The position numbers and the translations under genes are program-made. Shown here piece after piece: positions 26,153 to 34,953 of a stretch of DNA of 34,953 nucleotides (position 1 is its first letter; each line of letters begins with the position of its first letter). Location of the stretch: positions 1 through 34,953 of the forward strand of contig PWGV01000081.1 of the NCBI GenBank assembly GCA_003554585.1. Reading direction: 5' to 3'. This DNA comes from Halobacteroidaceae bacterium. Its GTDB lineage: Bacteria > Bacillota > Halanaerobiia > B1SED10-174. The notes under the pieces are model-generated. The model ran no database searches. It was not told the DNA's origin and saw only the letters and a program-made list of their open reading frames with translations.

Positions 26153-26911
26153 TCATCGACTGATATTAATGGTTATTTCTTCACTGCTTACTTCTCTATT
26201 ATGGATAGTCAGTTTACCTTCCAGGGTGTAATTCCCTGTTACAAAAGTCCGGATCTGATTGGTGGGGATAAGGAAAGTTTCCAGCCAGGCTTCGTAGGGC
26301 TCCATCCTTTTCGTCTGGAAAGCCTGGGTAAAGGCCTTATCGTGCGACCACTGCCAGACCACCCGGCCCCCTCTGCGTAAAACAAGATCATGAGTTTGAC
26401 CAGTTGAGAATTCCAGCTCAACTGACCGATCGGATTTATTGAAAATCAACATGGAAACGGCAATATAATCACCGTACTTGTAGCTGGAGCGGTCGGTATC
26501 GATAATAACCAGAAGCCCTCTCGCATCCCTGGCTGGAGGAGAAGGTTCTCCTCTTTCAATATCAATAATACCCCTCCTCTGATCCCAGTTTGTATTGAGG
26601 CCAAGGTGATCTTCTAAGAATTCCAGGGAAACCATCAGGTAGCCGTGAACGATAATCGGCCTATCAATAACAAAGTTATTGCCTGCAACCCGTCCCCTGA
26701 CCTGTTTCCCGGTAACATTCCAGTTTAGGCTGATATTGAAATAATCAGTTACCTCTTCCAGGGGGACAAAGATCCGCCCATCAATCTCCAGGGGTTTGAC
26801 TTCCGGCCTTACCCTCCGCCCATCAAAATATAAGTCAGCGGCCATTAAGCTAGAAGATAGCCCAATAACCAGGGCAAAAACGATTAACCCCAAAAATATT
26901 TTCTTGCTCAT
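26153..26911 (-). CDS. Secreted protein with copper-amine-oxidase-N-like stalk and BsuPI proteinase-inhibitor domain
   Basis: 252 residues. A signal peptide (KIFLGLIVFALVIGLSSSLM) is followed by a copper amine oxidase N-terminal-like domain (about 26-120; LEIDGRIFVPLEEVTDYFN and MVSLEFLEDHLGLNTNWDQR), a domain common in secreted Bacillota proteins. A BsuPI-like domain follows (about 130-250; YKYGDYIAVSMLIFNKSD, FSTGQTHDLVLRRGGRVVWQ, FLIPTNQ and GNYTLEGKLT). BsuPI was first described as the inhibitor of an intracellular subtilisin of Bacillus (family knowledge). Here it is exported and the gene lies directly after a subtilase-like gene, which suggests but does not prove a functional pair. It has its own promoter and terminator, with GGGAGGTG before the ATG. 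Confidence 0.85.
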   Translation of the reverse strand: MSKKIFLGLIVFALVIGLSSSLMAADLYFDGRRVRPEVKPLEIDGRIFVPLEEVTDYFNISLNWNVTGKQVRGRVAGNNFVIDRPIIVHGYLMVSLEFLEDHLGLNTNWDQRRGIIDIERGEPSPPARDARGLLVIIDTDRSSYKYGDYIAVSMLIFNKSDRSVELEFSTGQTHDLVLRRGGRVVWQWSHDKAFTQAFQTKRMEPYEAWLETFLIPTNQIRTFVTGNYTLEGKLTIHNREVSSEEITINISR

Positions 26912-26936: not shown

Positions 26937-26965
26937 ATTATAACCCTTTTTCTTTACATGGACAA
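26937..26965 (-). promoter_or_regulatory. Sigma-A-type promoter of the BsuPI-domain gene
   Basis: The minus strand reads TTGTCC-N17-TATAAT, close to the vegetative consensus and unlike the GCAGGA-type promoters of the envelope operons. The start would be about 20 nt before the ATG, just after the protease terminator. Confidence 0.8.
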
Positions 26966-27002: not shown

Positions 27003-27028
27003 AAAAAACCGGAACCCTAGGGTCCCGG
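27003..27028 (-). terminator. Intrinsic terminator after the pseudo-subtilase gene
   Basis: Stem arms CCGGAACCC (plus 27009-27017) and GGGTCCCGG (27020-27028), nearly palindromic, followed on the minus strand by TTTTTT. It lies 7 nt after the stop. Confidence 0.85.
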
Positions 27029-27034
27029 CGTATT

Positions 27035-28270
27035 TCACTCTTCTTTTAGTTTTTCCATAGCCTTCTGGGCATCCAGTATGCCCCCGCTAATCTTATCTTC
27101 CAGCCCGGGAATAATTCTTGAAGACCCCTTAATAAGATCTTTAACTTCCTGAGGAGAAAGATCCATCTTTTCTGACCAGAGCAGGGCAGCCACTCCAACA
27201 GCATAGGCAGCAGCAACAGCGGTTCCATCCCAGTATCCATAACCTCCCCCGGTTACAGCGGAAAACACATCTTCACCCGGGGCTGCAATATCAACCCACT
27301 CTCCAAAATTGCTGAAATCAGTCAGCCTGTCCTGGGGGTCAATAGCTGCTACGGTAAGGACTCCCGGAGAGGCGGCGGGGAAAAACTTCTCTTCCATTCC
27401 CATGTCCCCGCTCCCGGCAACAATTAAAATCCCAGATTCCTGGGCAAATTTTACTGCCTGCTCCAGGAATGGACTGGGAAAACGCCACCCTCCGTCCATG
27501 AGGGCAATTATTCTTTTTTCGGGGTTTTCCCTGGCCCATTTTCCGATCCAGACCAAGCCTCCAATCAAGTCCGCCCTGTAATGGCGCGCCTCCGAATCAT
27601 GAGTCTTAACCCCAATAAAACTGGTTTCCGGGGCAATTCCCCTCATTCTTTCCAGGCTTCCACCTGCAGCAATAGAAGCAATATGGGTTCCCCGACCATG
27701 ATCATCATGGAAGGGTATGGGAGCATCTTCCTCAGCTAATAGAGGTGAAAAACCATCAAGAACCCGGTTAATTACCTTGGGATGCTGGGTATCCAGTCCC
27801 GTATCCATTACTGCTATTACTACATCTCGATTACCCAGGGTAATATCCCAAGCACCAGCCACTCGAATTTTATCAAGTCCCCATCTTCCCCCGGTCCTTG
27901 CCGGGGAGGGAGTAGGTGCGGATGCCCCCAAGAAGTCGGGTTCAACCTGGCGTATGCCTCCCATTGCGAGAAGGGATTCCAGGGCCTGTGAGGTGGCTAT
28001 TCCCACCGGCATTCGAACCAGGTACAGATTAATAGCTTCCCAGGCAGTTTCAATTCTTCCCCCCCAGGCTTTTATAATATCTTCAGGATTCCTTTCCGTT
28101 TGAAATTCTACAAGGATCCTTTTGGGGTGATAGATTTCCACCTGTTCTGCGGGGTCATCCCGGTCGGCAAACCCCCATGGAATAAGGACTGCCCCTCCAA
28201 CAAGCAGCAGGACCAGTACCAGCAAGAGGTCGAAGGTAACAAATTTAGTTTGCTTGAATGGGCGTTCCAT
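27035..28270 (-). CDS. Membrane-anchored subtilase (S8) homologue lacking catalytic residues: probable pseudoprotease
   Basis: 411 residues. There is an N-terminal membrane anchor (FDLLLVLVLLLVGGAVLI), an I9-like propeptide region (about 50-112; KRILVEFQTERNPEDIIKAW) and a subtilisin fold (about 128-405). The catalytic Asp156 is kept in VIAVMDTGLDTQHP. The His motif, normally GHGTHVAG, reads GRGTHIAS, so the catalytic position is Arg193. The Ser motif, normally GTSMAAP, reads GTAVAAA (Ala351, codon GCT at 27218-27220). The oxyanion Asn is Ser287 (VAGSGDMG). The frame is otherwise intact, with GGGAGGAG before the ATG, so this looks like a retained non-proteolytic protein rather than a decaying gene. 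Its BsuPI-domain neighbour is downstream, and an apparently active subtilase is at 34442. Confidence 0.88.
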   Translation of the reverse strand: MERPFKQTKFVTFDLLLVLVLLLVGGAVLIPWGFADRDDPAEQVEIYHPKRILVEFQTERNPEDIIKAWGGRIETAWEAINLYLVRMPVGIATSQALESLLAMGGIRQVEPDFLGASAPTPSPARTGGRWGLDKIRVAGAWDITLGNRDVVIAVMDTGLDTQHPKVINRVLDGFSPLLAEEDAPIPFHDDHGRGTHIASIAAGGSLERMRGIAPETSFIGVKTHDSEARHYRADLIGGLVWIGKWARENPEKRIIALMDGGWRFPSPFLEQAVKFAQESGILIVAGSGDMGMEEKFFPAASPGVLTVAAIDPQDRLTDFSNFGEWVDIAAPGEDVFSAVTGGGYGYWDGTAVAAAYAVGVAALLWSEKMDLSPQEVKDLIKGSSRIIPGLEDKISGGILDAQKAMEKLKEE

Positions 28271-28312
28271 GGAAATTACTCCTCCCGGGCTAAATTACTG
28301 GATAATATAATT

Positions 28313-28341
28313 ATATTCTTTATTGGATTTAAAAAACCTTC
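28313..28341 (-). promoter_or_regulatory. Possible promoter of the pseudo-subtilase gene
   Basis: The minus strand reads GAAGGTTTT-N11-AAAGAATAT: a full match to the GAAT half and one mismatch (AGGT) in the -35 half of the sigma-H-like motif. The region is very AT-rich, so an overlapping sigma-A promoter (TATAAT and TATATT are present) is also possible. Confidence 0.35.
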
Positions 28342-34441: not shown

Positions 34442-34953
34442 CTATTCTTCCTCCACGATTTCCAGGCTTTCTACTCCCAGAGTAGAGAAATAATCCCCCC
34501 ACTGGTAGAGCAGATTGAGATCTTCAATATTCCTCTCTCCTCCTTCGGAGAAGTAATAAACACTGCTGCGGGCAAAATAGTCACCTTCGTCAATTTTTCC
34601 TGTCCCGTTTGCATCTATCCAGGCATATATCCTGCGATTTCCTGGCTCAACCCGATACAGCATGTATTCTCCCCCCCAGACCTCTGCTATCTCGCTTTTT
34701 AGGATTATCTGATTATCCAATTCTACCCCGGCAAAAACTTTAATATTGGGCATATCCGGAGCAAGGGCCCGGAAAACATCAATAGCACCAAAACCGACAT
34801 AATCATTGGGAAAATAAAAGTTTCCGGCAGTGCTCTGCATTCTGAAGCGGACCTCTTCAGGGCTAAGAGAGGGGTCCATTCCCATAATTAATGCTGCAAG
34901 GGCGCTGACGTGGGGAGCTGCCATGGAGGTCCCGCTCATCGTCCCGTAAGTAG
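34442..34953 (-). CDS. Subtilisin-like serine protease (S8), C-terminal part; 5' end outside window
   Basis: The frame is open to the right edge, so the start is not in the window. The catalytic Ser motif is intact (GTMSGTSMAAPHVSALAALI), unlike the homologue at 27035-28270. The protease fold ends with VGFGAIDVFRALAP. A C-terminal beta domain follows, with YAWIDANGTGKIDEGDYFA, which contains an EF-hand/dockerin-like DxNGxGxxDxGD loop and probably binds calcium. A secreted enzyme is likely, but the signal region is not visible. Its stop TAG is followed by a coding-like remnant in the same frame. Confidence 0.88.
   Translation of the reverse strand, partial: TYGTMSGTSMAAPHVSALAALIMGMDPSLSPEEVRFRMQSTAGNFYFPNDYVGFGAIDVFRALAPDMPNIKVFAGVELDNQIILKSEIAEVWGGEYMLYRVEPGNRRIYAWIDANGTGKIDEGDYFARSSVYYFSEGGERNIEDLNLLYQWGDYFSTLGVESLEIVEEE

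Follow-up and report, generated by a model that had tools for sequence, protein, structure and literature searches.

The pseudo-subtilase gene and its catalytic positions

The window, the whole 34,953-nucleotide stretch of Halobacteroidaceae DNA analysed here (contig PWGV01000081.1), carries in order the genes for LptF/G, LptD, LptC and LptA, a subtilase homologue referred to below as the pseudo-subtilase, a BsuPI protein and LpxC. The pseudo-subtilase frame runs unbroken on the minus strand from an ATG start at 28270 to 27035. The intact frame, ribosome site and terminator of the original prediction are recovered as a 411-residue open reading frame, a GGAGGA motif and a stem-loop with T run at 27008–27029. 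The features of the locus are as follows.

28313–28341, minus strand: upstream block pair GAAGGTTTT-N11-AAAGAATA, a promoter candidate of unsettled type; blocks near-invariant, spacer variable
28280–28286, minus strand: ribosome-binding site GGAGGA; GAGGAGT invariant across the four orthologues
27035–28270, minus strand: pseudo-subtilase gene, 411 residues, intact; three orthologues at 84–91% identity
28163–28270, minus strand: N-terminal membrane segment, residues 1–36, predicted helix 8–28, no lipobox; 92–100% identical across orthologues versus 80–90% for the rest
27935–28132, minus strand: Fervidolysin_NPro/I9-like prodomain, residues 47–112 (PF22148, 26.5 bits)
27119–27829, minus strand: Peptidase_S8 domain, residues 148–384 (PF00082, 107 bits, 1.4e-30)
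27803–27805, minus strand: Asp156, the catalytic Asp, kept
27692–27694, minus strand: Arg193 at the position of the catalytic His (Arg in 4/4 orthologues; all 30 active homologues have His)
27494–27502, minus strand: Leu257-Met258-Asp259, where all 30 active homologues have Asn-x-Ser in the 'NMS' strand
27404–27406, minus strand: Asp289 in place of the oxyanion Asn
27218–27220, minus strand: Ala351 in place of the catalytic Ser (Ser in 30/30 active homologues)
27008–27029, minus strand: intrinsic terminator-like GC-rich stem-loop and T run; similar stem-loops 3' of the gene in the related genomes G002, G003 and G004
26153–26911, minus strand: protein with Cu_amine_oxidN1 and BsuPI (subtilisin-inhibitor family) domains (PF12690, 74.5 bits), with its own promoter-like site at 26937–26965

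The gene looks monocistronic because it possesses its own conserved upstream blocks and terminator, and it forms no operon with any subtilase. The blocks at 28313–28341, separated by a variable spacer of 11 bases, resemble a sigma-H type promoter. This assignment is tentative, as spoVG of the same genus lacks the pattern and a loose version of it also occurs elsewhere in the window.

Catalytic positions were assigned from PDB alignments together with a multiple alignment with 30 active homologues. Both confirm that Asp156 is retained and that the His and Ser positions are occupied by Arg193 and Ala351, as originally proposed. The oxyanion Asn had been read as Ser287. In contrast, the PDB pairing '..agsgdmg' / '..AAAGNNG' and a column that is Asn in 30/30 active homologues place it at Asp289. 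The exchanges of Asn for Leu257 and of Ser for Asp259, absent from the original prediction, add two changes at positions invariant in the 30 active homologues. The protein retains 33 of the 46 positions at which at least 90% of the active S8 homologues agree; the fold is thus preserved around a replaced catalytic centre. Among the 13 changed positions are the two lost triad residues, His and Ser, as well as the oxyanion Asn, both 'NMS' residues named above and the Met following the catalytic Ser. The altered set is carried by none of the 30 other aligned S8 proteins, and the other S8 proteins retrieved in the class that span these positions all have D, H, N and S, none being visibly degenerate.

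By descent the protein is a member of family S8. The Peptidase_S8 match (PF00082 cut-off 21.8) and the Fervidolysin_NPro-like match both lie above cut-off, the latter corresponding to the I9-like region noted in the original prediction, and Foldseek aligns the predicted model with subtilisins (TM by target 0.79–0.92 among the best matches). The best PDB sequence match is AK.1 protease (E 2.6e-38), followed by thermitase. The pseudo-subtilase shares fold and domain order with the active S8A enzymes thermitase, AK.1 protease and Tk-subtilisin but lacks the H, N and S that these have in place. Of the Asp-His-Ser triad and oxyanion Asn that define an active S8 enzyme Asp156 is thus the sole survivor, against Arg193, Asp289 and Ala351. 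Nor does it belong to two other families, scoring 22 bits against the CspC non-triad pseudoprotease family NF040808 (curated cut-off 675) and 137 bits against the type VII secretion mycosin TIGR03921 (curated cut-off 278.75). The CspC-type jelly-roll insertion of ~130 residues is absent from its S8 domain of ~237 residues, and a search for anti-phage defence gave a generic subtilase match only. Judged by its sequence, the protein would fit the general description of a pseudoprotease: a protease fold, lost catalytic residues and a gene under selection. A separate subtilase of genome G153 (L137), with the oxyanion Asn read as Asp (SAGDGSK) and a GTT Ser motif (DGTTAAS), is possibly another altered subtilase.

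Conservation, origin and predicted structure

Orthologues are found in three other species-level genomes of the same genus, G003 (91% identity), G004 (85%) and G002 (84%), recorded as two Halobacteroidaceae and one Bacillota and, from their isolate names, taken to derive from soda-lake sediments. The Asp/Arg/Asp/Ala set is identical in 4/4 orthologues, over the limited span of four metagenome-assembled genomes of one genus; occurring in all four, it does not reflect chance or sequencing error. The orthologue search suggested with the original prediction thus finds Arg193 and Ala351 fixed and no orthologue with a normal triad. Beyond the genus, no orthologue was detected in 59 genomes of the class, and none above the general S8 background in 399 sampled genomes of the phylum. 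A genome-collection search, which reaches close relatives only, returned the same three. Genome G001 lacks the pseudo-subtilase, an absence that is uninformative because LpxC is missing too and the assembly therefore misses the stretch.

Pairwise dN/dS of the four orthologues (Nei-Gojobori) is 0.048–0.075, with several dS values near saturation (up to ~2) and the least diverged pair (dS 0.605) giving 0.075. The corresponding values in the same genomes are 0.02–0.14 for LptA, LptC, LptD, LptF/G, BsuPI and LpxC (0.03–0.14 for LptA/LptC), and 0.10 and 0.09 for two active subtilases. From the fixed altered set, the low dN/dS, the conserved membrane segment and the conserved upstream region and terminator, we infer that the gene very probably encodes a maintained, catalytically dead protein, as first proposed.

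In a tree of 60 rows the four pseudo-subtilases group together with full support, on a stem of 1.64 and with short tips. This clade joins subtilases paired with lipoproteins (93/72, not starred) inside a starred set of 14 rows. We considered whether it arose recently from active subtilases of the genus itself and rejected this: the tree places the clade outside them and forced placement is rejected (AU p 2.6e-06 with 7 rows, 0.005 with 8 rows), a result made uncertain by the long branches. The topology would fit an old duplication followed by fast change and then constraint, with long-branch effects possible.

The AlphaFold2 model (mean pLDDT 89, pTM 0.86) has unautoprocessed pro-subtilisin E and pro-Tk-subtilisin as its top Foldseek matches. 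Because the model best matches unprocessed pro-subtilisins, the prodomain probably stays docked. Predicted helices start at residue 193, the standard His position, and at residue 350, the standard Ser position, and the active-site geometry described here rests on the sequence alignment together with these helix positions. The N-terminal segment lies where active homologues carry a lipobox Cys. Residues 1–36 are more conserved than the rest of the protein although synonymous sites in this stretch do vary, the reverse of the N-terminal segments of LptA, LptC, LptD and BsuPI (signal peptides and the LptC anchor), which are less conserved than the rest. The segment thus seems to have a specific role, and an anchor is more likely than a cleaved signal. 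The inner-membrane anchor of the original prediction is thereby strengthened in part; Gly-Phe-Ala at 33–35 is a possible signal-peptide cleavage site, at which the segment could still be removed. No significant match to the segment was found among other proteins in three genomes.

Neighbouring genes and alternative explanations

The active subtilases around the pseudo-subtilase vary among relatives. In G002 it lies between two gene pairs, both consisting of a CarboxypepD_reg-type lipoprotein and, after it, an active lipoprotein subtilase; in G003 only a downstream lipoprotein is present up to the contig end; and in a second strain copy in G002, LptA is followed directly by the start of the pseudo-subtilase. 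The window's own genome has another lipoprotein-subtilase array on a small separate contig. With neighbours differing in this way, the pseudo-subtilase is thus the constant element between LptA and LpxC. The proposal that it regulates the active subtilase at 34442 finds no specific support: the intact G002 orthologue of that enzyme lies ~9 kb from the pseudo-subtilase, other active subtilases are nearer in some relatives, and they are not constant neighbours.

Several further observations concern these neighbours. The subtilase at 34442–34951 runs off the contig end; its 5' part appears to be the gene with which contig C213 (L005) begins, and the G002 orthologue of this subtilase (L039:2262–4121) has the full triad. 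The order CarboxypepD_reg-type lipoprotein then lipoprotein subtilase recurs across the class (L039:10061–13114, L039:15072–19358, L108, L109, L110 and L112). In G001 and in minor strains in G002 (L095, L096, L093, L094) a diverged LptD-LptC-LptA set is followed by a lipoprotein gene; the presence of two versions in a single bin points to mixed strains or a duplication.

The BsuPI gene directly downstream, overlooked in the original prediction, belongs to the family of the B. subtilis subtilisin inhibitor IPI (PMC3901451). In 14 genomes of the class BsuPI genes lie directly 3' of intact subtilase genes, on the same strand and at 2–115 bp (L146, L148, L149, L155, L160, L163, L164, L166, L169, L172, L174, L178, L098 and L108). 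This adjacency runs against the 2013 IPI structure paper, in which no completely sequenced genome had an IPI homologue gene near a subtilisin gene (PMC3901451), and it speaks for BsuPI proteins and secreted subtilases being functionally linked in this lineage. Since BsuPI follows intact subtilases in these genomes, the pseudo-subtilase here occupies the position of the active partners, and it might act as a decoy that binds the adjoining BsuPI protein or free prodomains, thereby controlling the amount of inhibitor available to active subtilases. We regard such a role as improbable: in G002 and G004 an active subtilase adjoins BsuPI, the pseudo-subtilase being ~5 kb away in G002; BsuPI is preceded by a promoter-like site of its own; a docked prodomain probably occupies the cleft, which is itself remodelled; and the function of IPI as a true inhibitor is itself stated to be in doubt (PMC3901451).

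A structural or regulatory part in the lipopolysaccharide-export neighbourhood formed by the upstream LptF/G, LptD, LptC and LptA genes is slightly less probable again. Its place downstream of LptA is constant in G000, in G003, in the second strain copy in G002 and, with an insert, in G002 itself, and the strength of selection is similar to that on the Lpt genes. Against this, the gene has separate upstream signals and its own terminator, and the matching stretch of the sister genus G005, downstream of its lipoprotein-subtilase pair, contains no copy. Lpt systems elsewhere are not known to need a protein of this kind.

That the protein is an enzyme after all, working through an unusual arrangement such as His191 or His196 with another nucleophile, is highly unlikely. 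His188, His191 and His196 do flank Arg193 and are invariant in the orthologues, but His196 corresponds to the structural His conserved in the HGTH motif, the helices predicted to begin at 193 and 350 fit the standard His and Ser positions, and Ser, oxyanion Asn and adjacent positions are lost jointly. Finally, the lost catalytic residues might point to a decaying gene copy, a reading rendered scarcely credible by intact frames in four genomes at dS of up to ~2, and contradicted by the selection test (dN/dS 0.05–0.075).

Proposed role of the pseudo-subtilase

The explanation we prefer is that this subtilase lost catalysis and was kept as a non-catalytic, membrane-inserted envelope protein that has its prodomain docked and acts by binding; taken as a whole, it is favoured with some reserve. 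In all four orthologues, and under strong purifying selection, the fold-determining residues are retained while a fixed set of residues replaces the catalytic ones. The N-terminal helix would be inserted in the inner membrane with the subtilase domain outside and, without self-cleavage, the prodomain would remain docked over the dead cleft. The protein may then serve as regulator or scaffold for a partner touched by both the membrane helix and the outer domain. By analogy with CspC/CspA, the likeliest class of partner would be an active subtilase of the envelope or the inhibitor system belonging to it; a role in regulating other subtilases is a tentative suggestion.

CspC and CspA are germination pseudoproteases of Clostridioides difficile in which two triad residues are replaced, the catalytic Asp is kept and the prodomain is not removed by self-cleavage (PMC6636752). 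The pseudo-subtilase likewise combines an S8 fold with two replaced triad residues and a kept Asp, and would similarly have been kept as a binding or regulatory protein. In contrast, CspC has Thr and Gly at the triad positions where the pseudo-subtilase has Arg and Ala, and CspC carries its jelly-roll insertion and is soluble in the spore, whereas the pseudo-subtilase lacks the insertion and has an N-terminal membrane segment. Its closest relatives in the tree are the lipoprotein subtilases paired with CarboxypepD_reg-type lipoproteins (519 and 517 residues in G002), which share its neighbourhood in G002 and G004 and have a related prodomain. These differ in possessing the full triad, a lipobox, a C-terminal extension and a gene placed behind that of the partner lipoprotein. 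The pseudo-subtilase is thus probably anchored in the membrane and has a binding or regulatory function comparable to that of clostridial CspC, yet it belongs to a separate lineage.

It is a speculative and rather unlikely extension that it represents a new family of membrane-anchored pseudo-subtilases, acting outside germination, that signal or regulate by way of a sequence-specific membrane helix and a prodomain docked for good, and that control envelope proteolysis together with BsuPI-type proteins. Among bacterial S8 pseudoproteases, the well-studied ones in the literature searched are the Csp germination proteins of clostridia. The BsuPI-after-subtilase order in this class offers a natural system for testing the role of a disputed inhibitor family and, if true, a separate and fixed loss of catalysis in a membrane-anchored subtilase of two-membraned Bacillota would mean that dead subtilases have been recruited more than once.
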